DNA of 64,000 nt from Nannochloropsis oceanica (taxonomy: Eukaryota; Sar; Eustigmatophyceae; Eustigmatales; Monodopsidaceae): positions 124,001-188,000 of the forward strand of contig CP038129.1 in NCBI GenBank assembly GCA_004519485.1. The letters run 5' to 3'. Of the stretch, positions 6,612 through 57,402 are shown in pieces (positions within the stretch are counted from its first letter, which is position 1; every line of letters starts with the position of its first letter). The position numbers and the translations under genes are program-made. Under the pieces are notes generated by a model that was not told the origin of the DNA, did no database searches, and worked only from the letters and a program-made list of their open reading frames with translations.

Positions 6612-9600
6612 ATGACACGCAGCGGCAGCTGCAGGAGCAGGAGCATGGACAGCAGTGTCAGAATCAGAGGCCCACGACCACTCCATCGAAAAAGATATTT
6701 GCCCTCAAGTCCCCGCAGTGTGCATGGCAGGTCTCTCATCCGTCTTTTTTTCCATTGCCTTGTGCTGGCCCACATCGTCGTTGATGCCTTCATTCCTCCG
6801 TACCCCGTCGCCTGCCCTTCCCTTCCTGTCTCGTCAACCTTTCTCAGCATTACCCAGCGGCAGCGGCAGCAGTTCAATACATACAGCAGCAGTATCAGCA
6901 AAAGCCTAGGCCAGGGAGGATCAACAAGGTAATCAGCCGCGGGCCCATGCAACTGCGTCCCCTTTCCTCAGTTCCTTCCTTCCCCCCTTCCTCCTTCACT
7001 CTATCCTTTTCTACGCCTCTTTCACAAATTTAATACACATATAAACATACATATGTACACATCTATCCGAGCCAGATTTCCTATTTTTTCCCCTTCACAC
7101 GCTCTAAATTCCTACTCTTCTTTTCACTTTTTTTTTTTTTTTTTTTTTTAATATTTTGAATATCACACAAAAACAATTTACCGGTGCGAAGCAGCGACCG
7201 CAGCAACAGTATAATGAGAAGTGGGAGTAGAAGGAGCGTACTCAGACATGCTTCAACACTCCTCGCCTTAGACACCGCTATCCCCCGCAGGCCCACGCGG
7301 CAGATTAACAATTTTCCCCCCGTTAATACGTGTGTCCTGCTCTCCATTTCGAATTTAACTTCCTTCCCTTCCACTACCCTCTCTATCGTACGCACATACC
7401 AAAAACACAAACAGCGACAGGCGATGCTTGCTCCGACACACCGCCGCGAGCCGTTTTGCAACGGTTAGCATCCCTCCCAACAAGAAAAAACCAGCAACCC
7501 CTCCCCTTCGGACTATGTCCCGTGAAGGTCCGTCTGCTCCCTCTTTCCCATCCTCCCTCCCTCTCCTCTTCATTCCTTTCTCCTCTTTTTCCATTTTTTT
7601 CCCGATTCTAATATCCTTTAGAGTACACAAAAGTTAATTTTTCCTTCCTCCTCCCTCCCTCCCTCCTTCCCTCCCTCCCTCCCTCTCTGGCAGCCGCCCT
7701 TGAGAAGTGGAGGACGTTTGTGAATGACAATCTTAATGACGCCGGCCAGAACGTGAGGGTCTCGGTGAGGCTGGCTGATGCGATGTTCGACTGCGGGTAG
7801 GTTGCGGAAAAAATAAGATTTTTTGTATCTTTTGAAAAAAATCTTTTGTTTTATTCATTAATTATATTTATTCATTCATGCATTTATGCATTCACATATT
7901 CACAGTTCTGTGCAGTCAGGAAAAGCCGGCACATTTCTCATCGAGGAAGGGTCAGACGAAGAAGACCAGGCGGAAAAAGTGAGGGAGGGAGGGAGGCAGG
8001 GAGGGAGGGTTGGGAGATAAGAATTAAACCGCGTGCCCATCTATCGACGGGACGAACATCAATGATGTAATAAAATTTATTCACTAGATTACATCATCAA
8101 TTTTCGATGAATTAATTAAGAACCCGTTACCACCATTTCTGCATAGATCAATTTAACAAATTGATTAAAATCTTCTCCCAATTATTATTAATGAATAATT
8201 AATTAAGTGGACATCAATTACCTAACATCCACTCTTCACCCGCATAGACGGAGAAACGCAGAGCGGCACGACAGGAACGAGAAATCTTCTTCCTCCTTGA
8301 CGGGCAGGTTCGCATTCAAGTGAGAGGGCAAAAAGTGGCCAGGCTGAAGTAAGGGAGAGAGGGAAGGAGGGAGGGAAGAGGGGGTGCGCAGCAAATTTCA
8401 CATCATTTAATGCAGAATTCCAATTCTTATGCCCACGTACCTCTCCCTCCCTCCCTCCTTCCCTCTTTTCCTCCCTCCCCCCCCTCCCCAGTCAAGGTGA
8501 TTTTCTGGGTGAGGCTTCTTTCGTGACCAACCGCACGGGCCCTCGCTCCGTCACCGCCATCTGCTCGTATGTGTCCTCCCTCCCTCCCTCCCTCCCTCCC
8601 TCCCTCCCTCCTTCCCTCGATGATCCTCACGATCATGTTGTACTTGTCGAGCTCGTCTGTCCTTCTGATACTTACGCCATCCGACTTACTGACCTACCCT
8701 CCCTTACTCCCTCTCTCCCTTCCTTCCTCCCTCCCTCCATCCTTCCCTCGCTCCTTTCCTCCTTCCCTCCCTCCTTCCCTCCCTCCCTCCCTTTAGGGGA
8801 GAGACCGGTGCTCATTACATAGTCTGGAATCAAGCCAAGCTCCATGCCTTCCTCGAGGGAGGGAAGCAGGGAGGGAAGGAGGGAGGGGGGAAGGTAGATG
8901 CCCATGCCTCCCTGTCAGGACAAGGTGAGGAGGGCGGAAGGCGAGGAGGGAAGGAAGGAGCGAAGGAGGGAGGACAGGTGAAAGAGGGAGCTCTACATGC
9001 CCTCTGCTTCCAGGTGCCACTTCGTTTAACTCCATCCCTTTTCCTCCCTCCCTTCCTCCGTCCCTCCGTCCCTCCCTCCCTCCCTCAGACCACACCCTGA
9101 ACGAGCTCCGGAACGCCCTCACTGAGTTGTGGGTTAGACAGCTCAGTAAAAAGCTAGCCCTTACCATGGCCACCTACGAGCGGTACGCAAGTCTTCTCTC
9201 CTTCCCTCCCTGCCTCCCTCCTCCCTCCTTCCCTCGTATCCAATCCACCCTCCCTTTCGGCCCGGCCTCCCTTCCCTCCTTTCCTCCCTTTCTCCCTCCC
9301 TCCTTCCCTTCCCTCTTCACCTGCCCTCCCACCTTTCTCTCCTCTTCTCCCTCCCTCCCTCTCTCCCATCCCATCATATCCGCTCCTTGTAGCCCGTCAT
9401 TCTGACACTCATTTCTCCTACGCACTTCCCAACGAGTCCCAAAAGTACCTCTCCAGTTAACCCTCCCTCCCTTCCTCCCTCCCTCCCTCCCTCCCTCCCT
9501 CCCTCCCTCCCTCCCTCCAGGGGCTGGCAACCCACGGACGAGCTAGAGGCGGACGAGCGAAAATACGAGGGAGACTTTGGCTTCCGAAACTCCTCGGCCT

Positions 9601-12600
9601 TTGGCATCTCCGGTCCGGCCGATGAATTGTCGAAGTAAGGAGGGAGGGAGGGAGGGAGGGAGGGAGAGAGTTCATGGGAAGTGAGGGAATGGGGTGTATG
9701 TCAGGATGACGGGCTTGAGCAAATGGACACGATGGGGATGGCATGGAAGGTGGAGGGAAAGAAGGAGAGAGGGAGGGAGGGAGGGAGGGAGGGAGGGGGA
9801 AATGTGTTTGGGCGAGCAACTCCCCTCTCTCACCCTCCCCCCCTTACCTCCCTCCCTCCCTCCCTTCCAGGGCGATTCCGAGCTCAGCTTTTAAACTTGC
9901 CCAATGGAATTTTCTGCGGGAGTACCAGGTACGGGAGGGAGGGAGGGAGGAGGGAGGGAGGGAGGGAGGGAGGGAGGGAGGGAGGGAGGGAGGGAGGGAG
10001 GGAGGGAGGGAGGGAGGGAGGGAGGGAGGGAGGGAGGGAGGGAGGGAGGGAGGGAGGGAGGGAGGGAGGGAGGGAGGGAGGGAGGGAGGACTTATGCTTG
10101 ACAATTATTTCTTTGGTGGTGCTCGGTGATTCGCCATTCGATCCGCTCTTGTGAGTGCGCCTGGTGTCCCCAATCAATTATTTAATTTGATTTTTATTCA
10201 TTGAATTTAATGATTTGTCATTTGATTTCGTCATATCCCCCTCACAGGCGATTCGTCGCTCGTTTCGTTTTTATGAGTACAGCAACGTCTTCCAGGGTCT
10301 TCGTAGGTCCGTGGGAACCAGCAGGTCAGGCGGGAGGGAGGGAGGGAAGGAGGGAAGGAGGGAAGGAGGGAGGGAAGGAGGGAGGGAGCAAGAGGGAACA
10401 CGAATGGTTCGATAAAAATCATACATGTTCATATGTATCTTAATTGCATTCTTCCTTCGCGTGTTTCCTTCCTTTTTGGTAATTGTGCTCATTCATACTT
10501 TTCTCCTCTCGCAACACCCTCAAAAACACTCAGCCCGTATATGGATGCGGTGGCCGTGATTCGCAAGCTCATCATCGGTGCCTTTGGAGCGATCGATCTG
10601 GTAACCCGTCCCTCCCTCCCTCCCTCCCTTCCTCCCTATCCTTCCTCTTTCTTCCTTCTCTTTCTCGCTCCTTTTCTTTTTGCATTCCTTCATCCCTCCC
10701 TCCCTCCCTCTCTCCCTCCCTCCCTCCCTCCCTCCCCCAGACCTTGGAATGGTTCGGCATTTTTCCCACCCTCCGACCGTCTCGAGCGTACATGAGCGAG
10801 AACCAGCAGGTGAGAGGGAAGGGAGGGAGGGAGGGAAGGAGAATGCAACGCTGTCATAGAGCCATACCTCTTATCTCTTCCAGGTAAAGATTTCACGGAG
10901 CGAGGGAGGGAGGGAGGGAAAGAGGGAAGGAGGGAGGAAAGGAGGGAGGAGTGATGGGATTGATGTACTCATGTGGCGTCTCCTACAGGTCGTGGATTTA
11001 CAAGCACGGCTCCGTCTCCTCACCCTCTCCAATGAGGTACGCCCTTCCCTCCCTCCCTCTCTCCCTCCCTCCTTCCCATTTCCCCTTCCCCCTCCTCTTT
11101 TCCCACATTCCTTCCTTCTTCTCAGCCTTCCTCCTCCCCTCCCTCCTCTCCCCACACTTTCCCTTCTCACCAGGCCATTAGCAAGCGCGAGGAAACACGG
11201 CGAGAGATTCAAATAGAACTCATCGACCAGGGTACATCCTCCCCCACATCCTCCCTCCCTTCCTCCCTCCCTCCCTCCCTCCTTTTCTCCCTCCTTCTCA
11301 CCGTTCCTTAACCTCCCATGTTTTCTTCATAGTGTTCTCCTCCTCACGCCCGTGTTTCTGACTAACATTTACATCCCTCATCTGCTTCTTAATGCCCTCC
11401 TTCCCTCCCCATCACAAGCCCGGCTCATCAAGCCCATCATTCTGACTGACACCCACACCCCTCATCTCCCATCCACATCCCGTCATCCCTCCCTCCCTCC
11501 CTCCCTCCCTCCCTCCCTCCTTCCCTCCAGCCCAAGCCCAAGGCGTAGGGATGGCGGCTAAGATGAAACAATCAGGCACCCCGTGGTTCGTCATCCTCCC
11601 CTACTACGCCCTATGCGCCTTCCTCGACATAGTCTATGAAGGCCGCCCACTGGCCCGCTTCTGGTTTCTGGAGACGGTCGCGCGGTACGCCCCTCTCTTC
11701 CTCCCTCCCTCCCTCCCTCTTTGTCTCCCTCCCTCCCTCGTTGTCTGCCCGCCACGTCTTTCGCCCCAGTGGGAGGAATGTGACTTTTCACGAAGTCACC
11801 CCTCCCTCCCTCCCTCCCTCCCTCCCTCCCTCCCTCCCTCCCTCCCTCCCTGCCTCAGCATGCCCTACTTCTCGTACATCAGCATGTTGCACTTATACGA
11901 GACGTTGGGATGGTGGACCATTGGCACGGACGTCAGGCGCGTGCATTTCGCGGAGGGTAGGGAGGGAGGGAGGGAGGGAGGGAGGGAGGGAGGGAGGGAG
12001 GGAGGGAGGGAGAGGAGATGGGCCAGGGGTATAAAAGGTATTGGAAAGTAGGGCTCGTGGATGTTCAAATGACGGGCTTGGTGATGTGGTCACATTCAGA
12101 CGGATGAAAAGAAGGGAGGGAGGGAAGGGAGAGAGGGAGGGGTTTGGTGCGTGGGTAGCTTACACTACCCCTCCTCCCTTTCTCCCTCCTTGCTTCCCTC
12201 CTTTCCTTAGAATGGAATGAGCTGCACCACCTGCAAATTATGGAGTCGTTGGGAGGGGACGCTCGTTGGCTCGACCGTTTCTTGGCCCGACATTCAGCAA
12301 TATGTAAGGAGCGGAGAGAGGGAGGGAGGAGGGGGAGGAAAGGGAAGGGGGAGGGAGTGGCAGGCATGTTCATTTATCACATGCATGTCCAAACACAATC
12401 TGACTTTTGCCACTGCTACTGTTTACCCTAATGTCCCCTTTCTCCCTCCCTTCCTCCCTCCCTCCCTCCTTCCCTTCCTCCCTCCCTCCAGTGTACTACT
12501 GGGTTTTAAACGTCTTCTTTCTGGTCTCGCCACGCCTTGCCTACAATTTCTCCGAGTTGATTGAGAGCCACGCCGTGGACACCTACAGTCAATTTTTGGA

Positions 12601-13552
12601 AGAAAATGAAGAGCTCTTGAAGAAGCTTCCCGCCCCTCGCGTTGGTGAGGGAAGAGGGCGGGATGGAGGGCGAGGCACACATGTAGACGTGCGTGTGTAT
12701 GGACGTGTGTGGTGGGTGTCGGTGGGTACTAATCCCATCTCCCTCCCTCTCCGCCCCCGCCCCCTAAACCCACATGCACAGCACTAGATTACTACGTGAT
12801 GGGCGACCTTTATATGTTTGATGAGTTCCAAACCTCCCGCCCTGTTCGTTCCCGGTAAGTCCCTGGCCCCGCCCTCCTCTCTCTTAACACCCTGTCCCCC
12901 TTCACGCACCTTTGGAGGCCGACATGACAAGACAGAAAAGGGCAAATGCAATGCAGCACAACCCTCACAGATCGTTGCTTTTTTCCAATTCCTTGTTGCA
13001 GGCCACTGTCATTCCTTCTTTTAGTGATTAAATTCCCTGAATAACATGTTCGGGGGCATCTGGAGACGAACGATGAAAGCGAGCAGGCAGAAAGAGCATC
13101 CCAAAATGTCTGCCCATTTTGTCAATGCCGTAATATTAATTAACACACTCAAATTTGATCGCTTGTTTATGTGTGTCTCTCTCCCTCACTCTCTCTCTTG
13201 CACACATATACACAAATGCAGGCGACCGCTGATTCGCTCCCTTTACGACGTCTTCTCCGCGATCCGGGACGACGAAAGCGAGCATGTCAAAACCATCAAT
13301 GCGTGTCAAGTCTCGGAGGAAAAGATTATCTCCCCCAACGCCGCCGCTGCAAATGCCGGTTGGGCGGAACAGGTAGAGGAGGAGGACGAAGAGAAAATGG
13401 AAAGACGGCTCAGAGAGGATTGGGTCAGGGAGTACGACGCTCTAGGAGTGGGAAGGCCCTGGGATGGAGGGGAGGAGGTAGGAGCGGAAGAAGGTGAAGA
13501 GGGGGAAGACCATGACGGGTTGGGGTGGAGCGAGGAAGTGGAGTTTCCTTAA
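6612..13552 (+). CDS. Plastid terminal oxidase with N-terminal CNB/Popeye-like domain
   Basis: Twenty-one exons keep phase from ATG 6612 to TAA 13552 (850 aa): 6612-6928, 7195-7463, 7694-7796, 7906-7978, 8248-8348, 8492-8566, 8797-8924, 9089-9182, 9521-9634, 9871-9928, 10248-10324, 10534-10600, 10741-10809, 10989-11036, 11174-11231, 11531-11684, 11859-11956, 12211-12303, 12492-12644, 12782-12854, 13222-13552. A signal peptide ends VVDA|FIPP. Residues about 200-385 resemble a cyclic-nucleotide-binding or Popeye fold ([10 protein letters not shown], then GDFLGEASF and GPRSVTAI, then YIVWNQAKL). Residues about 565-765 are a diiron AOX/PTOX domain with all ligands: E598 (LET), E638/H641 (NELHH), E690 (ESHAVDTY) and E759/H762 (RDDESEH). 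PTOX oxidises plastoquinol with O2. [12 protein letters not shown] and FDEFQTSRP favour PTOX over mitochondrial AOX. Ordinary PTOX proteins are less than half this length. The last ~75 residues are acidic. Two separate genes remain possible, but no transit peptide precedes the oxidase half. Confidence 0.85.
9372..9425 (-). repeat. Introner-like core, copy 1
   Basis: This copy lies in PTOX intron 9183-9520 and is antisense to the gene. The reverse complement carries the AATGACGGGCTAC-type core. TCCC arrays flank it on both sides. Confidence 0.6.
9692..9750 (+). repeat. Introner-like core, copy 2
   Basis: This copy lies in PTOX intron 9635-9870, in sense orientation. GGATGACGGGCTTGAGCAAA is followed by GATGGGGATGG, with GGGA arrays on both sides. 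Confidence 0.65.
9929..10101 (+). repeat. Longest (GGGA)n array in the window
   Basis: An almost pure GGGA tetranucleotide array of roughly 150 bp starts right at a PTOX splice donor (CAG|GTACGGGAGGGAGGG) and fills most of the 5' half of that intron. Runs of G3 at this spacing can in principle form G-quadruplexes on the coding strand. Confidence 0.9.
11413..11475 (-). repeat. Introner-like core, copy 3
   Basis: This copy lies in PTOX intron 11232-11530, antisense to the gene. CTCATCAAGCCCATCATTCT is the reverse complement of the core. TCCC arrays follow it up to the acceptor. Confidence 0.65.
12050..12112 (+). repeat. Introner-like core, copy 4
   Basis: This copy lies in PTOX intron 11957-12210, sense. 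GTTCAAATGACGGGCTTGG is flanked by GGGA arrays, the first of which begins at the splice donor. Confidence 0.6.
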
Positions 13553-15519: not shown

Positions 15520-15568
15520 AAGGCCTTATGTCGACCAGGATAACCGTGGTCGACATAATCAAGGCCTT
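15520..15568. repeat. Hairpin spanning the GT34 start codon
   Basis: The left arm 15520-15537 and the right arm 15547-15568 pair over 18 bp, with a 4-nt bulge in the right arm and a 9-nt loop. The ATG at 15528 sits inside the left arm. Confidence 0.8.
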
Positions 15569-19305: not shown

Positions 19306-22005
19306 TCACACTGTCATCAACGCACTTCCCGCCCGACTCCTCCTCCCTTTCTCACCCTTGACCTCCTCCTCCGCTTCCTCCCTCCCTCCCTCCCTCCCTC
19401 CTCCTGATAATGTCTCCTTTTTTATTTCGAGAGCAGGAGGCAAAGGATGGCTGTTGCTCATCCTACTACTCCCTCCCTCCCTCCCTCTCTCCACCGAGGA
19501 GGCCGAGCTTTTCTTTTCGTGATGATACGGGAGAGGGTGGGAAGAGGAAGAGGGAGGGAGGGAGAGGGGGAGGGAGGACGAGGAGGAGTCGGAAAGAGGG
19601 AAGGACATGATGGGAGAGGACGAGGACGGGAGGGAGGAAGGGGAGCGTGGGATTCCGCCAATGGACAAAAGCTCGTCCTGCACTTCCAGGGAACGGAGAA
19701 GGTACCTGAGGGAGGGAGGGAAGGAGGGAGGGAGGGAGGGAGGGAGGGAGGGGAAGAGGGAGGATAGGAGGAGTCAAAGGAGATGGAAACGTGATGGTAA
19801 TGGGTTGCTCCCTTCCTCCCTCCCTCCCTCTTCTTACCGGATTACCCTCCGGGTGACGACGGCCGTCTCGTCCATTATTCCTTCGCCTCCTCCTTCTCCT
19901 CCTCTTCCTCCCCCTCCTCCTCCTCCTCCTGCTCCTTTTTCACTTCCGTTGTCCCTCCCTCCTCCCTCTGCGACTGGAGGACGAGAAGGAGGGAGAGGGA
20001 GATGGACGAGGAGCGGGGGGAGGGGGCGTGCCCAGCTGTCTTCCCACTGCTCGAAAGGAGGGATGGAGGGAGCGAGCGAGCGAGGAAAGAATCGAAAAAG
20101 GGAAGCAGGGCAGGACAGAGGTAGGTAGGTAGGGAGGGAGGGCGGGAGGGAAGTCGTGCATATTAGTCCTAAAATGAAGTCTATACAGAACGATGGAGGG
20201 AGGGAGGGAGGGAGGGAGGAATCGAGGCAACACGCACCTCTTCCACTTCTCCCCACAGCCGGGGGTCATCCCTCGTTTTATTAAAGCCCAAGCCATATGT
20301 CCCTGTGAGTAATAGGATAGGTGTAGGGTCGTCAACAACAGCTTCTTGTCCTCCCTCCCTCCTTCCCTCCCTCCCTCCCCATCATGTCCGGCCAACCCCA
20401 TCCGTCATTCTGACACTCCCACCTGCCATCCCCTGCTCCTATCCACCCCTCCCTCCCTCCCTCCCTCCCTCCCTCCCTCACCTTCATATAGATCCAAAAG
20501 GGCATTAGCCAAATCGCACCTCGCCGAAGTTGACATAAGCAGCGCCGGCACCGCCCGCATCTCCCTCTCTCCCTCCCTCCCTCCCTCCCTCCCTCCCTCC
20601 TTCTCGTCCTCCCTCCCTTCCAGGGATTTGTCATCCATGACGAAGGCCCCCCCTCCTTCTCTCTCTCCCTCCCTCCCTGTCTCATCTTCGGTCTCACCCT
20701 CCTTTTCAGAGGTGGGGGGAAGGGGAGCGAGGAAGGAGAAGAGCGAAGAGGAAAGGGAGGAGGAGAAGGAAGAGGTGGAGTGGGAACGGGAAGGAGCAGT
20801 CATACTTATGCTGCTCTTGCGTCGGGATGGCAGTGGAGGGAGGAAGGAGGAGGAGGAGGAGGAGGAGGAGGAGGAGGAGGAGGAGGGAGGGGAGAGGGAG
20901 AAAGTTACGATGCTGCCCTCTGAGGAGGAGGGAAAAGGTGAGGAGGAGAGAGGGAGGGAGGGAGGGAGGGGGTGGAGGAGGTCGTGACGCGCGAGGCATT
21001 GAATGGCGCATCGAGAGACCTGAATGGGTAAGGGAAGATGGGAGTGTCGGAAGGAGGGAGGGAGGGAGGGAGAGGTGAGAGTGAGATAAACAACCTTTTC
21101 ACACTTGTCGACTTCCGCCCTCCCTCCTTCCAGCCCTCCCTCCCTCCCTCCCTCCCTCTCTCCCTCACTTGTCGGACCACCGCCGCCAGCATGACCAGCT
21201 CGTGGGTCATAAACCACAACGCATAGGGTGCCTTGTCCTCCCCCCCTCCCTTCTTCCCGCCCTCCTTCCCTCCTAGGGCATTGATGATGGGGGAGGAGGA
21301 GGAGGAGGAGGAGGAGGAGGAGGAGGAGGAGGGGGAGGAGGAGGAGGAGGAAGAGGTATGGACGATGGTGTGTGCGAGTCTGTGGAGGGAGATCAGGGCA
21401 TCCCGCCTAGTAAGGGAGGGAGGGAGGGGGGGAGGAAGAGAGGGAGGGAGGGTTCAGGGAAGAAGGTGGGTGGTGAGAGGGAGGGAGGGAGGGAGGGAGG
21501 GAGGGAGGGAGGCGAAAACAGATCGATGGAATGTCAAATACTCACCGGCTGCTGCTGATACTCTCTTCTCCCTCGCTCCCTCCCTCCCTCCCTCCCTCCC
21601 GAGCCATCACTACGGCATCGACCTCTCCCAAAAGAAGACTCCACAAAGCGCTCTCAATCTCTGCTAGTGATGATGATGATGATGATGATGAGGAGGAGGA
21701 GGAGGAGGAGGAGGAGGTGGAAGGGGGGGAGGGAAGGAGGAGGAGGTTAAGAAGCTGTGTGAGGAGAGAAGCGGCAGCAGAGGAGGAGGAGGGGGAGGAA
21801 AGGAGGGAGGGAGGACGGGAGAGGGAGGAGGAGGAGGCGGCGTGCTGGATGAAGGTGGCAATGGAGGGACTGAGGGAGGGAGAGATGGAGGGAGGAGAAG
21901 GGGGAGAAAGGGAGGGAGGGAGGGAGGGGATTAGTTTATCTGTTGGATGTGTGAGATTGTTTTGAACGGCCGCACTACGAATAAAAGCAAATAAGTGACA
22001 CACAC

Positions 22006-22049
<44 letters not shown>

Positions 22050-25000: not shown

Positions 25001-27927
25001 CTCCCTCCCTCCCTCCCTCCCTCCCTCCCTCCCTCCCCCCCCCTCCTCTTCTCCGCTGGCAGGGGTCGGGAGAGACCTCCACAACGGAGACAGAAGGGAG
25101 GGAGGGAGGGAGGGGGGGAGGAAGGGGATGCGTTTCACCCGCACCCCTTGGACAGCGAGGGCTTTTTGCATCATATCATCGATGGCTCGTCCTACTGCTG
25201 CACCTGACCCCTCCCTCCCTCCCTCCCTCCTTCGCGCCCTCCTTCCGTCTTTGCTTCTGGAGGAGGGGGGAGAGAAAGAGGAAGAAGAGGAGGAGGAGAA
25301 GAGGGAGAGGTGGAGGAGGACGGTCTGTGTGATGGGGAGAAGAGGGATGCCTCCTGTGGCAGGATCGACCTGAGGGAGGGAGGTAGGAAGGGAGGGAGGG
25401 AGGGAGGGAGGGAGGGAGGGAGGGAGGAATTAAAGGGGATATTGTAAATTGAAAAAATGTGCGGGTGTAGGGGAAATGTGGTCTTCCCTCCTATCTACCC
25501 CTCCCTCCCTCCCTCCCTCCCTTCCTCCTTAGGAAGCAGCAGTCCAGCAGACGCTCATCATCAATCAATCTACACCTGTCCCTCCCTCCCTCCCTCCCTC
25601 CCTCCCTCCCTCCCTCCTTCACCTCCGCCAAAGCTTCTTTCACTGGAGGCCAGAGCCATGGCAACTCCCTCCTTCCTTCCAGCACCCGTAGCACCGCTCC
25701 TTCCCTCCCTCCCTCCCTCCCTCCCTCCTCCTGGTGATGACTGGCAGAAGGAAGGGGGGGAGGAGGGAGGGGAGGGAGGGGGGGAGGAGGAGGGGGGCTG
25801 CGGAGGAGGGAGAGGAGCTCCGGAGTGGTTGCTAGGTCTAGTGGCGTCTTGCCCTGAGGGAGGGATGGAGAGAAGGAGGGAAGGAGGTAGGGAGGGAGGG
25901 AGGGAGGGAGGGAGGGAGGGGTAGATAGGTGAGAGCATGAATAAATGATTGCAAGCTTGTGAGTTTGAGGGAGGAGGGGAAAGAGGAAAGAAGGGAGGGA
26001 GGGAGGGAGGGAGGGAGGAAGAAAGGAAGAGAGGAAAGGAGGGAGGGAGGGAGGGAGGGAGGTTAGGAATATTGGGAGAGAGGGATGTTAGAGTGTCAGG
26101 GACGGAGGTCGAGGTCGGTGAAAGAATATGAGTGGTAAGTGTATGGGGGATATGGGTGTTCAAATGACGGGTTGGAGGAGACGAAGATATGATGGGAATG
26201 GAGGGAGGGAGGAGAGGGAGAGGAAACAGGGAGGGAGAGATGGAGGGAGGGAGGGAGGGAGGGAGGGAGGGAGGGAGGGAGGGAGGGAGGGAGGAAAGAC
26301 CTACCTTGTGTGGGCCTGTTTCTGCCGTGATGGTGGGATCGGCATGGTGCCGCAGCAGGAACGCCGCCTGTCAAGGGAGAGATTACATTTCAAAACATTG
26401 ATATTAGGAAACATAAGCATCGTAATTTAAAATATATTAGGGACAAATATTTAGAAACGAAGGACAACAACAAGAAAAGAGAAACGCCCACACAAAGGAA
26501 GAGTGAGCTTCCCTCCCTCCTTCCCTCCTTCCCTTTAACCCTCCTTCCCTCCCTCCCTCCCTCCCTACCACGGCCAGATGTCCATTTTTTGCCCCCTCAT
26601 GCAGAGGTGTCAGTCCCTCCTCATTCCGGGTATCAAGAACACTCCCTTCCCTCCCTCCTTCCCTCCCTCCTCCTCCTCCTCCTCCTCCTCCTCCAGCGAC
26701 TGCTGCCACTGCTGCTGCTGCTGCTGCTGCTGCTTTCGCCTCACGGGAGAGGGTGAAGAGCTCTTGGAGGACCTGAGAGGGAGGGAGGGAGGGAGGGAGG
26801 GAGGGAGGGAGGGAAGAACGGTGAGATCTATGCATCTAGTCATCGATCTCTTCTTTTCCTTCCCTCCCTCCATCCCTACCTCCCTCCCTACCTCGACGTG
26901 CCCGAAACACGCAGCCCAATGCAACATGGTGTCATGAGGGCTGGTGCCATTGGAGGCTAAGAGAGGGACGCCGCCTTCCACCAGCTCGCGCACACCACTG
27001 CCAGGAGGGAGGGAGGGAGGAAGGGAGGAAAGGAGGGAGGGAGGGAGAGAAGGAGGTGTGGATGTTTTGTTTTTTTCCTCACGTGGTGAATCAAAGGGAG
27101 GGAGGGAGGGAGGGAGGGAGGGAGGGAGGGAGGGAGGGAGGGAGGAGGAAGGTGGTGTTAATATAGTCTGTGAGGGAGCTGTTACTACTGCAGCTTGCAT
27201 GGCCCCCTTTTTTATTCCTCTCCTTCCTCCCTCCCTCCCTACCTCGCCTCTCCCAACGCTGTCCGTCTAAATCCTTCCATCACAAACGCTTGTTGCACTT
27301 CCTTACTGCTGCTGCTGCTGCTGCTGCTGGTCATGTCCCATGCCCTCTTGCCAGCCACAGCGCCTGCGGTACCTCTGGCCTGGAGGAAGCGAAGGAGGAG
27401 GTAGAAATTGTAAAGCTTTGTGAGAAAAGGCATTTATCGGACTTCCCACCTCATCACCATCCCTTTTGCTCTTCCTGGACCGTGAGCTCCCTCCCTTCCT
27501 TCCTTTCGCACCTTGGTATCCACACCAGCCAACAACAGAGCACGGCAAGCATCGACCTGGCCATGCATTGCTGCTATATGTAATGCAGTCGCCCCATCAT
27601 CGTCTCGAGGGGTGGAGAGGAGGGAAGGAAGGAGGGTATAGGGAAGGCCGGTCTTGCCTAGCTCGGTGATAACAGCCTGAAAGGACAAAATGGAGGGAGG
27701 GAAGGGAAAAGGGAGCGATGAATACAATTGCAATATGTATAGATGTGTGCTTTTCTACTTCTCAGTCTCTCACACTCTCTTTCATCATTCCTCCCTGCTT
27801 TTGTGTTTCCACCGACCTTGATTACATCTGTCCGTCCATGCATGCTTGCTGCATGCAGCACTCGAATCTCTTCCTGTTGGTGCTTATCTTCCTCTGTCTG
27901 TCCTCCCCCCGTTGTTGGTGGGGCCAT
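19306..27927 (-). CDS. Ankyrin-repeat protein, 23 exons, about 1,702 residues
   Basis: Phase is kept through 23 exons: 27927-27817, 27676-27512, 27379-27243, 26997-26892, 26772-26569, 26367-26305, 25853-25623, 25369-24938, 24789-24458, 24302-24171, 24005-23887, 23824-23616, 23459-23354, 23226-22997, 22844-22588, 22533-22508, 22458-22089, 21974-21546, 21406-21169, 21019-20482, 20302-20238, 20046-19838, 19705-19306. Residues about 20-270 hold degenerate ankyrin repeats (EIRVLHAASMHGRTDVI, GATALHIAAMHGQVDACRAL, DTMLHWAACFGHVE, GLTPLHEGAKNGHLAV, GKTPLDLA). The remaining 1,400 residues have no domain I recognise. They mix helical segments (RRDALISLHRLAHTIVHT, SARCDLANALLDLYE) with poly-Ser, Gly/Arg/Glu and Pro/Ser/Leu tracts encoded by GGGA arrays. 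Ankyrin repeats bind proteins; nothing shows the partner. Exons 8, 9 and 20 read through arrays that could instead be in-frame introns. The 22533-22458 junction (a 49-nt intron) is the least certain. Confidence 0.65.
20380..20432 (-). repeat. Introner-like core, copy 5
   Basis: This copy lies in the ankyrin-gene intron 20303-20481. CCCATCATGTCC then CCATCCGTCATTCTGACACT is the reverse complement of the core. TCCC arrays flank it. Confidence 0.6.
22003..22048. repeat. CA/TG microsatellite
   Basis: A run of about 20 CA dinucleotides lies in the ankyrin-gene intron 21975-22088. Confidence 0.9.
26094..26205 (+). repeat. Introner-like core, copy 6 (long form)
   Basis: This copy lies in the ankyrin-gene intron 25854-26304. 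It is about 110 bp and nearly identical to copy 9 at 44167-44285. It includes TTCAAATGACGGGTTGGAGG and is flanked by GGGA arrays. Confidence 0.8.
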
Positions 27928-31788: not shown

Positions 31789-31975
31789 ACGGCCCTACCC
31801 CCCTGTCTGATCAAAAAACCTGTCAAAGTCGCTTGTAAAACTCGGACCAAAATAAGGGGTGAATATGCAACAATTTATTGTAAGAAGGCTTCCCCTCGTA
31901 TGCAAGTCCTAGAAGACGTCAGGTTGCATGCGATGGTTCTAGAGGGATGTAGGAACGGCAAAAAAAAACTAGAGT
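31789..31975 (+). repeat. Dispersed repeat, copy A
   Basis: About 180 bp that match 50326-50510 in inverted orientation with few differences. Shared blocks include GTCAAAGTCGCT, AAAACTCGGACCAAA, GAATATGCAACA and AGAGGGATGTAGGAACGGCA. It has no coding content. Confidence 0.85.
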
Positions 31976-35364: not shown

Positions 35365-36791
35365 ATGGACCAACACATGATGTATGTGGAATATGACAAC
35401 AACCTCGTACTCTGCTTACTCTTCATGCACATGTACGTCATTGGCGGCAACCAGTTTCCCCGTACGTCTTGGAATCTCGATCCAAACCGCCCTCGTACAT
35501 TGCCGCAGCTCTTCGAAGACTTTACCGATGATTTATTCCTGAAAATGCACCGGTTTACCAAGGAACAAGTGTGGTACATGCTCCCCAGACTCCGCATCGA
35601 AACAGTTATCGAGTTGGAAGGGTAAGCACTCATGGCCAATATTGACTATCTTACACGTACTACTCTTCCCAATGGCTCACGCTGTGGTTCTTGACCCACA
35701 ACTTTCTCTCCCGCTCTCCTACCATTTACCTCATCACCCGCCTAACAACATGGACAGAATGCCAAAAATGTGTGGAGGAATGGTCTTTGTGATGCTTCTT
35801 GGCCGCAATGCTCATCCTCACTCTGTAAGAGGGACGATGGAAAAATTGTACGGCTATGACAGAACACAAATTACGAAATGGACCAACTACATGCTAGAGT
35901 ACGTGTTCGATCAATGGGCCTTCCTTCTGGACTTAAACGAGGAACGTTTGTCAAACAAGATGAACGAGTACTGTGCATTGTTCGGCACAAAAGCAAACCC
36001 AGAGGATCCGTCTGCCTGCAAATCTTATCTTTGCATTGATGGCGTCAATGTGTAAGTCCCCGTCGCCCTTGTTATTCCTTGTCTTGCTTCTCCACGAGCC
36101 ACTTTGGACTACCCCCCTCACCCTCAACCACACATTAACTGTCTTCACCTGTAGAAGGGTTTGCTACCCTACCAGGTACCAGGAACGGTACTACAAAGGG
36201 GCCTACAAATACCATGGGATAAAATTCCAAGGGATGGTATCACCAGTGGGAATCGTTGAATCGTGTTATGGTCCTCTTCCTAGTGTGCGCAATGACGCTG
36301 CGATGTGGGACATCGCCCGTGACTTCAGTGCGATGACCCGCATCAATGAACGTGTTGGGAGAGTATGCACAGTTTTGGGCGACCCGGCTTACCGTGGTCG
36401 ACGCATGAGAGCTTTTATTGTCACATCACACGACCGCAATAGACCTCTCACACCTGAGGAGCTCACCCACAATGGCAACCTTGCACGGGCGCGCGTTTGC
36501 ATTGAATGGACGTTCGGTCGCATATTCTCGCTTTGGCGCCGTTTGAGTTTCGTGCCACGTATGCAGGTCGGTGTTTCACCGTTAGGCAAGCTGTACTTGG
36601 TGTGTGTCATTTTATCAAATGTTCATACTTGCCTAAATGGGGGCAATCAGACGGCGTACTACTTCGGGGGAGAACCGCCAACCCTGGAGGAGTATCTTTC
36701 TGCCCCGCGCCCAGCACGGCGTAGGTCACGTGCCCATGAGTTCTATAACACGGCACGACAGGTACTCGACGACAATTACTCGATGTACTAA
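35365..36791 (+). CDS. Harbinger transposase (DDE endonuclease)
   Basis: Three phase-consistent exons (35365-35621, 35758-36051, 36155-36791) give 395 residues. The catalytic triad is visible: D180 in CIDGVNV, D260 in LGDPAYRGRR and E301 in RVCIEWTFGR, with YYKGAYKYHGIKFQ between the first two as in DDE_4-type transposases. The start is the first ATG in the frame, within GLRNMDQHMMYVEYDNN. The open frame extends about 49 codons further upstream without an ATG. The enzyme should cut the element at its TIRs, usually with help from the accessory protein. All three catalytic residues are present and no break is seen. Confidence 0.85.
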
Positions 36792-38235: not shown

Positions 38236-38243
38236 ATTGAAGT

Positions 38244-42979: not shown

Positions 42980-47896
<4,917 letters not shown>

Positions 47897-50178: not shown

Positions 50179-51073
50179 GCAGCCTCCAAGCTCTCTGTGT
50201 CGGGTATAGCACGTAAAAGGCCCGGCAAAAGAGAGGATAAGGAATATGGTGTGTGTTGAGTAAGGATTGTATGGGGGTTGAATTTGCGTATTTTTTGCTG
50301 AGAGACTGTATTAGTTCTTTTTGCCGTTCCTACATCCCTCTAGAACTATCGCATGCAACCTGCGTCCTCTAGGACTTGCATACGAGGGGGAGCCTTCTTA
50401 CAATAAAATGTTGCATATTCATCCCTTACTTTGGTCCGAGTTTTACTAGCGACTTTGACAGTTTTTTCGATCAGGCAAAGTCCCCGGACGGCCCACGGCC
50501 CACGGCCCCATTAGGAACGCGCCGCTGAGGCCATTCTCACACTAATGAAATCAATGCCGCTTTATCAACGCGTTGTCATGTCTATACAGAAATCCTTACG
50601 TCCCATCGACGGACAAAGTGAACGCATGCCATTCATTCGTACAGAGGGGTGGTTCATCATCGCCTCTCGGTGGCCGTTTCCCCTCCGTGCTTCAACTCGA
50701 CGTGTCCTAGGGTTCTATATACAAAAAAGGGTGACAAATTGTCTCGTCTCTATTGTCGATATTGTCGACTGGTTACTGGCAAAAATCCAGTGACCGAGAT
50801 TCAGGTGTGAGTTTGGTCACTGGAATCGTGACATGCACCCACCATGCCCTTGAATGCCAGTCCCTGTAGCACGTCCTGCTTCAGGTAAAACCTTCAAAGA
50901 GGCCTATCGATCCATCCGCCATGGGTTGGTCGGTATGGGCATCGTTTACATTTGTTGCTCGAGCTCGACGAAACAGTAGCAACCTACCCTTCAAGCTCGG
51001 AAAACATTCTTGCGGTTCGTCTTTTTCTTCTCTCCCTCCTCCCCTTCTCTTCCTCCACTCCCCTCCCTCCGCC
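50179..51073. other. Spacer between the two rhodanese genes
   Basis: About 0.9 kb holding the promoter of the plastid-targeted rhodanese gene and the inverted dispersed repeat. Open frames at 50545-50793 and 50921 (+) have no recognised features. Confidence 0.4.
50326..50510 (-). repeat. Dispersed repeat, copy B
   Basis: Inverted copy of 31789-31975, the same blocks in reverse order and complement. Confidence 0.85.
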
Positions 51074-52509
51074 TCACATGGGGATATCTTCCAAGGCCTC
51101 CACCATCCCTTCCTCCTCCCCGTATTGCTTCTGCCACCCTTCCCACCCTCCCTTCAAAACATAGACTTTGGGTCCCACGTCCTTACCTGGCAGGGAGGGA
51201 GGGAGGGAGGGAAGGGTCGTACAGTGGAACGATGAGTCATCAGGGACAAAGTAAGAGGACATAAAAGGAAGGAAGGAAGCAGAGAGAAGAGAGGAAAAGG
51301 AGATATTGCGGCAAGCCCCCCCCCCCTTCTCTCCCGGGGGAAAAAAGAAAGAGAGAAGGCGGAGAGGGGAAAAACACACGTACCAGCAGCTACAGCAGCA
51401 GCAGTGGCAGCCTGAAGGCGGGAGAGGAAACGTGCGGCAGATTGTGGACCGCGTTGATGGCTCTGTGAAGAGAGGGAGGGAAGGAGGGTGGGGCGAATGA
51501 ATGGAAGGAAGGATGGGGAGAGGGAGGGAGGGAGGGAGGGAGGGAGGGAGGGAGGAAAGGGCTTTTAATTCGTACCTTGCCACAGTGGAAGATGACCATC
51601 TCCTTGTCCTTGTAAATTGAAGGGAGGAGGGAAGGAGAGAAGGAGGGAAGAAGAGAGGGAGGGAGAGGTAACAAAAGATGTGAGACACCGAGGAAAGCGA
51701 CACCGAAATTTCTGTCTGTCATCATCCGTTGCCGCCCTTCCTTCCCTCCGTCCCTACCATTAGCTCCTCCACAAGCTTATCGACGCGGTCCATGTCCTTC
51801 AACCCTTCACTGGCCACGTTGAGGGCCCCAGGTAATTTGCCCTCTGAACAAGGAGGGAGGGAGGGAGGGAGGGAGGGAGGGTGGGGTTTTGTGGAGGGAA
51901 AGTCAGAGATTCTGGACTTGACCTTTCGAAAGGAGGGAAGAAAGGGAGAGAGGAAGGAAGGGAAGGAGGGAGGGAGGAGAAGTGAGCTACATAATGTAGG
52001 TATCGTAGGCCATCTTCCATTCAATCCCTCCCTCCCTTCCCTCTTCCCTCTCGCCCTCCCTCCCTCCCTTCCTCTTTACCGGAAAAATCCGAGCCTCGGA
52101 CATCCACAATTTGAACCTTCCGTTGGCTTGCGGCCTGGTCCCTTTGGGCTGTCGTGAGAGGGAGGGAGGGAGGGAGGGCGAGAGGGAAGAGGGGAGGGAG
52201 GGAGGGCGGGAAGGAAAGGATTGCGATTCAATTCACTGCAGCAGGAAAGGAAGAAAGGAAAGTGAAACCGAAGGGATGCATGGAGTGAAGTCTGGTTGGA
52301 CGAGCTTTGCTTGAACCAAAGCAATTAAGAAAGGACATACCCAGGATCAGATCCCGCACAGCGGCGGCCTCGAGAAACTCGGGCGTAGGGAAGGGAGATA
52401 TGGTGGTGCTGCTGGTACGGGCAGTTGGCGCAATGTTGCTCCCACTGCTGCTATTGCTGCTGCTCTCATTGTTGTCGGTAGTAGTGGTGACGGCCGCGGG
52501 GGTCGTCAT
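51074..52509 (-). CDS. Rhodanese-domain protein, paralogue of the neighbour
   Basis: Six exons keep phase (52509-52341, 52148-52080, 51843-51758, 51608-51576, 51462-51384, 51186-51074), giving 182 residues. Motifs run in the same order as in the gene at 48856: VQIVDVRGSDF, GKLPGALNVASE, DRVDKLVEEL, then H-C117-GKSHQ-R123 (CX5R, split by an intron) and VYVLKGGWEGWQ. The N-terminus (MTTPAAVTTTTDNNESSS) lacks a signal peptide, so a cytosolic or nuclear place is likelier than the plastid. No array insert interrupts the domain, and it has more introns than its neighbour. The start is the first ATG in the frame; an earlier exon is possible. Confidence 0.8.
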
Positions 52510-52856
52510 CTAATTTTCTTGTGAGCTACGCTGGAGGGGCAGAGAGCGAGATTGAACCTGCGGTTGGTTGATCGGTTGGGTAAGAGAAACATTAGGAGAG
52601 CCTGAATGAAGAGGGTTGGATGAACGAAATGGATGGATTCTACCACTGTAAAATTGTTACCATAGACAATACTTGTCGTTAAACCTTTCACGGATCGAGG
52701 CCTTCTGTCTATTTTCTTTCCCCCTTTGTGTCCCTATGCACTGGACAGCAACACACTTCCCTGTGCCTCCATGTGAGTTTTTGTGATAGGACGAAGCTTC
52801 GAGTCCTGACTTGATTTGATGTTGCCTTTGCGTGCATTCTCCAGGAGTTTATTTTA

Positions 52857-54460
52857 ATGCCGCAGTTCTCTGTCAACCTCCTCCCTCCCTTCCTTCAACC
52901 CCCTTCCCAACAACCACACAGCGGGAAGCAAGCAGCAACGCTTGTGTATGGTATGAAAAAAGTCGTCCGATCCATCACTTTTCCGATCGGCGCACCGATA
53001 TGTGGCAGTAACCCCAGCAGTAGCAACCGCAGTAGCAGCAACCGCAGCAGCAGCAACAGCTGCGAAAAGGAGGAGGAGCAGGAAGAGGAGGAGGACGATG
53101 ACCAGTGGCAGCGCCACCACCAAAAGAGATGCAAGACGAACGAAGCTTCTGCTGCAGCTGCTGATACTGCTGATAGAGGCGTTTGTCGTACTCCTCTTGC
53201 TGCTGGGTCAAAAGGAATAGAAGAAGCAGCAGAAGCAGCAGCAGCAGAAGCAGTAACAGCAGCAGCTACAACACCAACACCAAAAACCACCGCGTTGGGC
53301 GTAGCTCCCCTTTCCTCCTCCCCCCGCCCCATCACCATCCACCTACAAGAATGCCTCGATGGCGCTTTTGGCTTGTTCCTGTGGTCCGCCGCCAAGAAGT
53401 TGGCCTCTTTCCTCTTCAGGTTGTGGCAGCAGGAGCCTTTAATGTTCAAAGGCAAGCGTGTCATTGAGCTCGGGGCTGGGTACGTGCACTAGCACCATAA
53501 GAGGGGGGAGAGAAGGACAGAGGGGAGGGAGGGAGGGAGGGAGAGAGGGACGGAATGGGAGGGAAGGAAGGAAGGAGGGAGGGAGGGGTTCGTCTTTGGG
53601 GCTCGTCAAGGATAACGGCCATGGGACCAGAGATGGAAGCAGGGCCTATTTAATGCCCCTTTTTTCTACGCACTTGTATAGATTCTTACCCCTCCCTCCC
53701 TCCCTCCCTACCTCCCCCCCTCCCTCTTCTCTTCTGTTTCAGCACCGCGCTTCCAGGCTTGTTGTGCGCCCATCCCTTCTTCGGCACCTCTTATGTCCTC
53801 CTCACGGACAGGGAGGACTCCCCGTTAGTGCTGGAGAACGCCCGACAGTCGGTACTTTTGAATGGGCACTGCCTAACCGGGGAAGCAGGAGGGGGAGGAG
53901 GGGGAATAGGAGGGGGGAGAGGAGGAGTAGGAGGAGGAGGAGGAGGAGGGGGAATAGGAGGGGGAATAGGAGAGGGGAGAGGAGGAGGAGGAGGAGGAGG
54001 AGGAGGAGGAGGAGGAGAGGGAACGGTAGTGGCAGTAGAGGGATGGACATGGGGAGACCCAAGGAAATTCCTGGAGGGAGAAAGAAAAGGAGGATGGGAT
54101 ATCATCCTAGCTGCGGACTGCTGTTACCACGAGGCCGAAACGGAAGGGTTTCTCGCAACGGCTGCGTTTCTGTTGAGGGGCTATTCCAATTTCTCCTCTT
54201 CTTCTTCTTCCTCCTCCTCCTCACCTGTCCTTTACATGAGCTACCCGGACAGGGGGATGGAAGGCCTCCGTCCTCGTTTTCGTCGATGGGGCCTGACAGC
54301 CAAGGAGGTGGAGGGAGGGGGGGAGGACGAGGAGGAGAGCGAGGAGGAGGAGGGGGTGAGGGTTTATGTTCTGGAAGTGCGCTTGGCGAGGAATGCAAAA
54401 GAAGGGAAGGGCGAGAGGGAGGGTGGGAAGGAGGGCGGGAAGGAGGGAGGGACGGGATGA
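52857..54460 (+). CDS. METTL21/FAM86-like protein methyltransferase
   Basis: Two exons (52857-53479 and 53743-54460) give 446 residues. The Rossmann methyltransferase motifs are clear: FGLFLWSAAKKLASFL and then KRVIELGAGTALPGL (motif I, split by the intron), VLLTDRED (post I), VLENARQSVLLNG, and a WDIILAADCCYHE segment like the DxxY region of this group. These enzymes methylate lysines on chaperones, elongation factors or eEF2. The target is not visible. Two regions are odd: a Ser/Ala/Glu-rich N-terminus of about 150 residues encoded by triplet repeats, and a run of nearly 50 residues, almost all Gly, encoded by GGGGGA/GGA arrays between motif II and the WTWGD segment. The Lys/Glu/Gly-rich tail also comes from an array. 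Fewer than half of the residues look like core enzyme. Confidence 0.78.
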
Positions 54461-54968
54461 GCAGAGGGCGGGAGGGAGGCAGAAAAGGAAGAGGAAAGGA
54501 GGAAGAAGAAGAGGAGGAGGAGAAGAGATGCAAGAGAAGAAGGAGGAGACACAGGAGGAGGAGGCAAAGGCCGGTAGAATAAGAATTAAAAGTATTTAAA
54601 GTGTGCACAAGCTAATGAAAATCGGAAGAGATGTAAAAGATGTCTTGTGAACGATATTATTTTGCCATAAGAACATTAAAGAAATACCTTGAGAATAATG
54701 TAATTACAAAAAAACTTGTATGTTCCCCTCACTTACAATCCATCCATCGTTCGTCCTTGCTCTTCATTATTCGTGCCTTTATTCTTGATCCTTTGTCTGC
54801 TTCATGCTTTAAGCTCCCACACCTTAAGTCCCTCCCTCCCTCCCTCCCTCCCCGTTATCTCAAAGGTTCTCCCTCCCTCCTTCTATCCCTCCCTCCCTCA
54901 TTTCCCATTCCCTCATGAGTCTCGGCAAAAAGCATATATATATATATATATATATATAACCTCGCCCA
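54461..54968. other. Intergenic, convergent 3' ends
   Basis: About 500 bp between the methyltransferase and CysRS 3' ends. It includes TCCC arrays near 54830-54900 and an AT dinucleotide run at 54934-54958. Confidence 0.6.
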
Positions 54969-56080
54969 CTACCCCTTCCCCACAGCTTTCGCATATGCTT
55001 TCTTGTGCCCCTCCCATTCCTTCCCTAATTTCTTCAACACGCCCTTGGAGAGAGGATTGCCCTCCTTGTCGTGGGTCGGGAAGCCTTCGGGATCATACCC
55101 GGAAAATTTGTCTCCCTGCGTCCGTTGAAAGTAGACGGAAGGTGGGATTTGAGCCCTGTGGTGAGGAGGGAGGAAGGAGAGAGGGAGGGAGGGAGGGAGG
55201 GAGGGAGTGAAGGCCAGTGGTGAACGATTCTTACTAATGAGTGAGCTTTCTTTTATTTCGTTTCGACTGTCTAGCGCCATCCCGGCCCTCCCTCCCTCCC
55301 TCCCTCCCTTCCTACTGCAATCCCTGCTTCGTTACCTCGCCTCCTTCTCCGCTGCCTTTTTGGCAGCTTCAGCCTTGAGCTCTTGTTTCCTCTTCTCCTC
55401 CGTCTCCTTTTGGGCCTTCTCCTTCATCAGCACCGACGGGTCCACGAGCTTCCAAATCGAGCCCTGGCGGAGGGAGATAGGGAGGGATTAAAGAGAAGGG
55501 AGGGAGGGGAGGAAGAGAGTGAGTGAGGGTAAGTGCATGGAGGTGTCGAGGAGAGGAAGTGCATGGAGGTGTCGAGGAGAGGAAGTGCATAGAGGTGTCG
55601 TTGAATGCCTTTTTGTTGGGTACCCTCCCTCCCTCCCTCCCTCCCTCCCTCCCTACCCCATCCTTGTCCTCTAGCCGGACGCCCAAGGGAGGGAGCAGAG
55701 AGTCACGGAGGCTATCACACAGCTCGAGCACCTTACTGCGAGTGGAGGGAGGGAGGGAGGGAGGGAGAAATGGATGGATGGAAAGTATGAGCAAATGCGT
55801 CTGTCCAAATGTGACGCTTCCCTCCCCCCTCCCCTTCCTTCCTCCCTCCCTCCCCCTCACCCGGCATCCTTCTCGATCGCCGCTGCCCTCAGGGCATCCC
55901 TAAAGGAAGCCACCACATCCAACACCGGCGCCATCACTTCCTCCCTCCCTCCCTCCCCTCCTCCTCCTTCCCCTATCCCTCCTCTCAGGGGGGACGAGAA
56001 ACCGAGTTCTCCCTCACTACCAGAAGCCAATCCCAAGCACTTAAAGACCCAGGTGGTGTACTCCGCGACAGCGCTGAGGA
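54969..56080 (-). CDS. Cysteinyl-tRNA synthetase, C-terminal part (cut by gap)
   Basis: Four exons (56080-55861 partial, 55735-55657, 55463-55336, 55155-54969) read to a stop. The 5' part lies in or beyond the N gap. The sequence follows the eukaryotic CysRS C-terminus: VLDVVASFRDALRAAA, then KVLELCDSLRDSLLPPLGVR and LEDKDG, a Lys/Glu-rich helix, and SVYFQRTQGDKFSGYDPEGF then PTHDKEGNPLSKGVLKKLGK. The catalytic domain (HIGH, KMSKS, zinc site) is not in this window's sequence. A GGGA array encodes [11 protein letters not shown] in the first exon. The Rh transporter on the other side of the gap is a different gene and must not be joined to it. Confidence 0.8.
55531..55602 (+). repeat. 26-bp minisatellite, about 2.8 units
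   Basis: AAGTGCATGGAGGTGTCGAG then GAGAGG is repeated head to tail in the CysRS intron 55464-55656. Confidence 0.85.
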
Positions 56081-56180
56081 NNNNNNNNNNNNNNNNNNNN
56101 NNNNNNNNNNNNNNNNNNNNNNNNNNNNNNNNNNNNNNNNNNNNNNNNNNNNNNNNNNNNNNNNNNNNNNNNNNNNNNNN
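56081..56180. other. Assembly gap (100 N)
   Basis: Exactly 100 N, a conventional filler for a gap of unknown length. It separates the 5' part of the Rh gene from the 3' part of the CysRS gene. Confidence 0.98.
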
Positions 56181-56213
56181 GGGAGGGAGGGAGGGAGGAG
56201 GGCCAACGCACAC

Positions 56214-57402
56214 ACCAAACGTGTGGATGACGATGGAACCTCCTGCATCCTCCGCTTGAAGGACCTCGCTGATAACGGCTTCAGAGGCCCGCATAGAAAA
56301 TTATTTCGAGGAAACATAGGACCAGGAGCTGGGTGGGTGAGACCTGGAGGGAGGGAGGGAGGAAGGGAGGGAGGTGGGGAGGGAGGGAGGGAAGGAGGGA
56401 GGGAGGGAGGGAGGTGGGGAGGGAGGGAGGGAGGGAGGGAGGGAGGGAGGGAGGGAGGGAGGGAGGGCATACCTTTCCAATCAAGGCGCCGAAAGATATG
56501 AGGACGGCGGCAACGCCAAAATCACCCTGAAAGAGCATGGTCACATCTAGAGTGGGCCCTCGCAACCCCCCCCCACCGATGAGGCCGTGCATGAATGAAT
56601 AGAGGATGATGCACCATTGGAGACCTGGGTAGGGAGGGAGGAGAGGGAGAGAGGGAGGGAAATGATGTGTTGGGAAGGATATGGGAGGGAATATACTGTG
56701 GGTGTCCAAATGGTAGGCTTGAGGAGGTGGATACGATGGGGAGGGAGGGAGGGAAGGGGAAAGAGGAGGGAAGGAGGAAGGGAGGGAGGGACAGACAGCT
56801 TGAGAGGAATCGGACACGATGGAAAAGAATCCGAGGCATTCAATGCAAAGAAATGTCGAGATTGTAAAGTGAGAGGGCGGGAAGGCGGGAAGGAGGGCGT
56901 ACCGAGGCAGGTCATGAGAAAAGTATAGCCGCTGGCCGAGTAGCCGTGTCGATGCAGGAAGGTCATGAGGTTCCCAAAGCCAAAAAGCATCATCGCGTGG
57001 ACCCCCAGCCAGGACTGGTATAGCGTCGTGGGGGTGTAATTGGAAGGATGTTTATCCGAGGCCGTGCCGTCGGCATCTGCAGAAGGGAGGAGGAGGGAGG
57101 GAGGGAGGGAGGGAGGGAGGGAGGGAGGGAGGGAGGGAGGGAGGCACGGGGAAGGTTATTAGAGATGTGGCGACCAAAAAGGACTCGTTATAAAGTGGAA
57201 TGTAAAAAATAAGTCAACTGTAATTGTTGCTGTCTACGCTGGCGACTAGGAATGAAGGGAAAGAGGGAGGGAGGGAGGGAGGGAGGGAGGGCTTACCCGG
57301 GGCGTAGGAGCCGTAAAGCACCCAAATGATAAGGATGAAGGCTTGCATGAGGAATAGGGTCAAGGGGAAGGCCAGGCCGGTCTTTCCATGGTTATCATCC
57401 AT
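56214..57402 (-). CDS. Rh-type ammonium transporter, N-terminal part (cut by gap)
   Basis: Four exons are visible: 57402-57297, 57076-56903, 56624-56473 and 56343-56214. The protein starts MDDNHGKTGLAF with a membrane span (LTLFLMQAFILIIWVLYGSY) and continues with Rh signatures: VHAMMLFGFGNLMTFLHRHG, then a span ending TCLGLQWCII, GDFGVAAVLISFGALIGK, SPTQLLVLCFLEIIFY and GGSIVIHTFG, whose His is the first of the twin pore histidines. Rh proteins conduct NH3/NH4+. About half the protein is present; the rest lies beyond the gap. In the last exon the frame slips by one base after IIFYA (near 56296), next to a G run; this close to the gap, a sequencing error is the simplest cause. The last exon may end at a weak GTGTGC donor. 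Confidence 0.82.
56690..56748 (+). repeat. Introner-like core, copy 13
   Basis: This copy lies in the Rh intron 56625-56902. GTCCAAATGGTAGGCTTGAG is followed by GAGGTGGATACGATGGGGAG. GGGA arrays flank it. Confidence 0.65.

Follow-up and report, generated by a model that had tools for sequence, protein, structure and literature searches.

The window, i.e., the whole stretch of 64,000 nucleotides analyzed here, corresponds to C30:124,001–188,000, where C30 is one of the 32 contigs that make up the 29,264,788 bp genome of Nannochloropsis oceanica. The profile search and the gene models covered C30:1–258,000, and C30 past 258,000 was covered by genome-wide searches only. Genes were modelled ab initio; the gene finder was home-made, and C30 together with other fetched loci served as its training set. 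The models were built from sequence only, and GGGA arrays may bias them toward introns. Modelled introns made up 36% of the sequence, and the intergenic share of C30:105–258k was 46%. The accessible text of PMC6610115 gives 2.87 exons per gene and introns of 370.9 bp for N. oceanica, and that of an earlier paper (PMC3499364) gives 1.7 introns per gene and introns of 230 bp.

Copies of a short related sequence, the core, were present in four genes of the window. The PTOX gene (plus strand; AOX, PF01786, E = 2e-19) carried five cores in four modelled introns. The intron at 9183–9520 had an antisense core at 9371–9412, and that at 9635–9870 had a sense core at 9693–9737. Two tandem antisense cores (11329–11363 and 11406–11457) lay in the intron at 11232–11530, and a sense core (12057–12084) in the intron at 11957–12210, which falls within the AOX domain and is absent in the paralogue on C14. 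The kinase gene (minus strand; PF00069, E = 2e-66) had six core-bearing modelled introns, at 43123–43369 (antisense core 43196–43241), 43449–43722 (antisense, 43545–43594) and, within the kinase domain, 44150–44395 (antisense, 44226–44272), 44494–44711 (antisense, 44583–44629; by reading, the preceding exon is longer than modelled), 46372–46570 (antisense, 46463–46511) and 46712–47025 (sense, 46914–46956). The minus-strand Rh ammonium-transporter gene had a single modelled core intron at 56625–56902 (antisense core 56697–56743); a fragment of this model, which is fused to a 7tm_3 receptor, matched Rh transporters in the PDB (E = 2e-17) and no Pfam family at 0.01. In the ankyrin gene (minus strand), an intron at 25854–26304 was recognized by reading and not by the gene model, with an antisense core at 26149–26196 that shared 95% identity with the copy at 44226 in the kinase gene; the joined exons matched ankyrin repeats. 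One further copy, at 20376–20418 on the minus strand, had no modelled gene around it, and reading gave no single continuous frame there.

Other repeats and assembly features were found in the same region. A distinct repeat, at most ∼165 bp long and without GGGA arrays, occurred at window 31804–31967 and 50315–50477 and at C30:206783 and C30:239975; its copies were about 89–93% identical in the masked self-comparison, and it is likely to be another mobile element. A DDE_Tnp_4 transposase-like frame (E = 2.5e-12), which we take to be Harbinger-type, lay at window 35973–36788. At C30:254711–255644 (L040), a tandem unit of ∼175 bp was modelled as a repeated 51-bp exon and ∼124-bp intron. At about 105 kb, C30 changed sharply: GGGA 24-mers rose from 429 per Mb in C30:1–105k to 2,784 per Mb in C30:105–258k, and the number of modelled introns per kb of coding sequence went from 2.45 to 5.39. 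C30:105000–258000 may have had a history of its own. A 100-N assembly gap at window 56081–56180 falls at a GGGA array, and the assembled array lengths may be unreliable.

Detection and distribution of the core

The core was picked out by masked self-comparison of C30:1–258,000, without use of the consensus given in the initial annotation of the window. At E ≤ 0.01, an iterated nucleotide profile then matched 33 copies; the reversed-sequence control yielded nothing but matches at E = 2.1 and E = 5.6. The consensus of 26 copies was GATATGGGTGTCnGAATGACGGGCTTGAGGAGGCGGACATGTGATGGGGA. The initial annotation had described a related core shared by introns of four unrelated genes, and the profile search bears this out. 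It had counted 13 such introns (PTOX 4, ankyrin 2, kinase 6, Rh 1), of which 12 stand: the window holds 14 copies at 13 places, and the thirteenth place, the copy at 20,376, presumably its second ankyrin intron, lies outside any gene model. Copies in different introns had a mean identity of 54% over a 72-base stretch, which makes them look old. The two closest pairs, each across different genes, were 97% (C30:108966/112770) and 95% (ankyrin/kinase) identical.

Genome-wide, a 23-base pattern allowing up to three mismatches gave 34 matches, a lower bound, and none for the reversed control. C30, which represents 1.3% of the genome, held 22 of these strict matches, and 12 were elsewhere. Eight of the 12, all but those on C8, C11, C17 and C22, were fetched, and each matched the core profile at E < 1e-4. 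A search of the genome DNA with one core copy as query returned five places, all on C30. The 14-base word of the initial annotation, with up to one mismatch, matched 51 times genome-wide against 23 for the reversed word and is thus not specific alone. The reversed controls for the profile and the 23-base pattern rule out chance or common GGGA composition as the source of the core. No Rfam family reached its gathering score in the window, and an exact 22-mer had no match in IMG/VR. These results confirm that the core family is real.

Core-bearing modelled introns numbered 26, in nine C30 gene models, to which are added the ankyrin intron and introns on other chromosomes. Similar core sequence was thus found in many introns at unrelated gene positions, and most host genes could be identified, the exceptions being one C30 model and the L041 and L044 genes: eight model proteins had Pfam matches, to a kinase, AOX/PTOX, fructosamine kinase, fatty-acid desaturase, two MFS transporters, a DAGAT-like acyltransferase and a 7tm_3 receptor. 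A B56-domain gene outside C30 (PF01603, E = 2e-130) carried two core copies in modelled introns.

A tabulation of profile matches by location, as envisaged in the initial annotation, placed 30 of the 33 copies of C30:1–258,000 in modelled introns and none in exons. The three outside gene models were the ankyrin copy (an intron by reading), that at window 20,376 and one at C30:120,519. The enrichment was significant against the 36% intron share of the sequence (P = 7e-11 by copies, 3e-9 by distinct places). It also held against an array background: of the GGGA/TCCC tracts in C30:105–258k, 61% are intronic in the models, which gives P = 1e-4 when copies are counted and 6e-4 when distinct places are (26 of 29). 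Among the eight copies fetched from outside C30, five were in modelled introns, all antisense, two had no assignment, and one (L010), between two convergent genes, was apparently intergenic. As to the earlier statement that no core was seen in exons or intergenic DNA, no exonic copy was found among these, and the L010 copy is an apparent exception for intergenic DNA.

Confinement of this kind could also arise if a non-autonomous transposon or minisatellite had inserted into pre-existing introns and its exonic and intergenic copies had been lost. A short repeat found in both orientations, with one copy apparently intergenic, would suit such an origin, as would the introns of the ankyrin and acyltransferase genes, which are far longer than the block they have in common with other introns. 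However, the 46% of C30:105–258k that is intergenic holds only three of 31 copies, one of which is in the ankyrin intron by reading. Core introns were only modestly longer (median 276 bp) than coreless introns with arrays (220 bp) or introns without arrays (208 bp), and little else remains in many of them: with core and arrays removed, at most 60 bases were left in 12 of 26, and only two coreless introns, ranked from the shortest, were under 61 bp. The distance of the core to the intron end is not random either (see below), and this origin is accordingly held to be unlikely. The phases of core introns (9/9/8) did not differ significantly from those of coreless array introns (p = 0.12). The exon preceding the intron ended in CG in 9 of 26 core introns and 14 of 120 coreless ones (p = 0.007), an excess that is weak because it was one of several junction features looked at.

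Core position and orientation of the GGGA arrays

The position of the core was analyzed in 31 introns, five of them added by hand (ankyrin, L041, the first L043 copy, L044 and L046); six copies (C30:120519, C30:144376, L010, L042, L045 and the second L043 copy) were set aside. In element coordinates, 22 of the 31 introns had the 5′ edge of the core at 50–110 bp from one intron end, where 28% was expected; these comprise 17 of the 24 antisense copies and 5 of the 7 sense copies. The 50–110 bp bin was picked after the data were seen, a choice allowed for by a scan statistic: the best 50-bp bin on the 5′ side contained 21 introns, a number that no random placement out of 20,000 attained, and the best on the 3′ side contained 10 (p = 0.72). 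A random side-swap test gave p = 0.004. One and the same edge of the element thus adjoins the 5′ splice site in sense copies (GTRAGGGAGGG and the like) and the 3′ splice site in antisense copies (pyrimidine tract, YAG). The 3′ ends of copies kept no fixed distance to intron ends and ran into arrays of any length. The narrow 5′-edge distance in both orientations is the strongest sign that the edge of the element may be an intron boundary and not a point of random insertion within an intron.

Relative to the gene, the core was antisense in 24 introns and sense in seven (p = 0.003), and an antisense core lay a median of 88.5 bp before the 3′ splice site. This bias would be compatible with a conserved intronic function, such as a splicing or regulatory signal in the genes of one chromosome, and the antisense core often reads CATTCTGAC, which resembles a branch site, before a pyrimidine-rich stretch. 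A function of this kind is nevertheless very improbable, as sense copies exist and most introns have no core. Moreover, exclusion of AG was not clear downstream of the antisense core (AG 76, GA 92), and the antisense core as a fixed branch site was dropped on this ground. As a raw count, just 34 occurrences of the motif CTRAY came within 60 nt of a 3′ splice site among 231 introns.

Array orientation mostly followed that of the core, whichever way the core pointed relative to the gene, much as the initial annotation had described: the nearest array shared the core orientation at 50 of the 56 flanks with an array, and four flanks had none. Five of the six exceptions were on the 3′ side of sense cores, where the array was opposed in 5 of 10. 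Coupling is partly expected, because the 5′ flank of an antisense core, toward the 3′ splice site, has to be rich in pyrimidines in any case. A comparison of the first array of each intron largely escapes this bias: a purine array came first in all 7 introns with a sense core, and a pyrimidine array in 15 of the 19 with an antisense core (Fisher p = 5e-4). The coupling is in keeping with the earlier claim that core and arrays travel as one unit, but the arrays are not peculiar to such a unit: GGGA 24-mers had about 680 overlapping matches per Mb genome-wide, and arrays occurred in 83 of 120 coreless introns of C30:105–258k. Since 24-mers are spread genome-wide while 22 of 34 strict core matches are on C30, the arrays are general and the core concentrated. 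Among the coreless introns of C30:105–258k, 24 of 45 had a purine array starting no more than 10 nt from the donor, and none of 45 had its last purine array that close to the acceptor; 54 of 89 had a pyrimidine array ending no more than 10 nt from the acceptor.

Paralogues, junctions and copying between genes

All six core introns that could be tested were missing from paralogues, and so were those coreless introns of the same genes that were tested. In the PTOX paralogue on C14 (56% identical), the reading frame ran unbroken through the positions of three C30 introns, of which one carries a core. The kinase paralogue on C11 was without all five testable core introns (43449–43722, 44150–44395, 44494–44711, 46372–46570 and 46712–47025; that at 43123–43369 was not counted as testable) and without the tested coreless ones. 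One coreless kinase intron had been considered as common to the C11 paralogue, and by reading the positions were ∼4 nt apart, with no exact sharing. The acyltransferase paralogue on C1 lacked three coreless introns. The pattern fits intron gain, or intron loss in the paralogues, as read from these gene comparisons. With respect to the earlier claim that the element creates introns, the absence of core introns from paralogues agrees with it, but because coreless neighbours are absent too, this absence does not prove that the core caused the introns.

Target-site duplications were not seen, with a summed junction match of 1.69 for 26 core introns and 2.33 for 120 coreless introns. In the course of these comparisons no terminal inverted repeats came to notice. 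Blocks of sequence were shared between genes. A unit of 260 bp with two tandem cores was common to the PTOX intron at 11232–11530 and an MFS-gene intron (C30:114916–115276), in opposite direction relative to the genes, and a unit of 230 bp common to ankyrin and kinase introns comprised nearly all of the kinase intron and about half of the ankyrin intron. Closely similar pairs shared about 150–260 bp, never whole introns in both partners. Similarity between copies fell weakly with distance (Mantel rho -0.18, p = 0.017).

The main rival to introner-like insertion takes these blocks as traces of exchange among existing introns: breaks in an array would be repaired ectopically from the array of a nearby intron, carrying the core along and creating no intron. 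Arrays are present genome-wide and adjoin splice sites in coreless introns as well, the common blocks end inside or near arrays, and the missing duplications and the weak fall of similarity with distance also favour such repair. Cores cluster on C30 even though C30:1–258k holds only 2.4% of the 24-mer array matches of the genome. On the other hand, array recombination alone does not obviously fix the core near an intron end in both orientations, and core copies are found on other chromosomes. Ectopic repair thus does better than the introner reading on clustering and missing duplications and not on the fixed element edge, and it is regarded as a possible, though less probable, explanation.

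Origin of the core-bearing introns and known introner systems

On balance, the copies probably belong to an old, decayed and non-coding introner-like family with microsatellite ends, a reading held with modest confidence. The unit would be (GGGA)n, a weakly kept spacer of ∼45 bp, the 50-bp core and (GGGA)n. Copies may have inserted into genes in either direction and been retained where the transcript could splice them out, the array end itself presumably supplying the splice signal. Read as GGGA, the array would yield donors of the form GTRAGGGAGGGA, and read in reverse, a polypyrimidine tract of TCCC that ends in YAG. Intron creation is more likely than spread into existing introns but unproven. 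Counted against the introner-like reading are the lack of target-site duplications, 3′ ends without fixed distance, coreless introns that are also absent from paralogues, the location of 22 of 34 strict matches on one chromosome, and the apparently intergenic L010 copy. More tentatively, there may be a class of introners with tetranucleotide-array ends, in which the array gives a donor one way and a polypyrimidine tract with acceptor the other way, so that an insertion could be spliced in either direction without inverted repeats. Many coreless array introns would then be decayed relatives, and surveys that filter low-complexity sequence would miss the class.

The origin of new spliceosomal introns is a long-open question. 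The accessible texts indicate that N. oceanica is transformable (PMC3499364) and that genome-level comparisons cover six species of the genus (PMC6610115), which makes the presence or absence of core introns directly testable. Among the papers listed, none describes such a family by its title or abstract opening, subscription papers being mostly outside this scope, and the accessible part of PMC9481584 names N. oceanica only for comparison. In the available text of the survey of introners in diverse eukaryotes (Gozashti et al., 2022; PMC9860276), similarity was sought that starts near intron ends, in either relative orientation; introner families lacking TSD or TIR exist, and low-complexity families were filtered out by hand because microsatellite expansion can mimic introner families. 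Nannochloropsis is not named in the main text as available. If the present family is confirmed, microsatellite-ended elements would be an intron source excluded by design from at least one large introner survey (PMC9860276). As in the introners of that survey, similar sequence occurs here in many introns of unrelated genes; unlike them, as far as the accessible text goes, the N. oceanica copies have microsatellite-array termini, a fixed distance at one end only and clustering on one chromosome.

Several known systems bear a partial resemblance to this family. The introners of Aureococcus and Micromonas, attributed to Huff et al. 2016, are reportedly repeated elements acting as introns in small marine algae, one of them a stramenopile. 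According to the accessible part of PMC7789003, Aureococcus introners carry direct repeats as well as terminal inverted repeats, constant in length, whereas target-site duplication was not found in N. oceanica. The introner elements of Amoebophrya are likewise repeated introns, for which, in the same text, general mobilization by a transposase was ruled out; they have inverted repeats of 8–20 nt, direct repeats of 3–5 nt and non-canonical splice sites, in contrast to the GT–AG models and arrays seen here. In Daphnia neointrons, double-strand-break repair is considered as an intron source (PMC4202315), which is close to the ectopic-repair alternative. Their internal repeats are 4–17 bases long, microsatellites were excluded, and the available text mentions no shared core.
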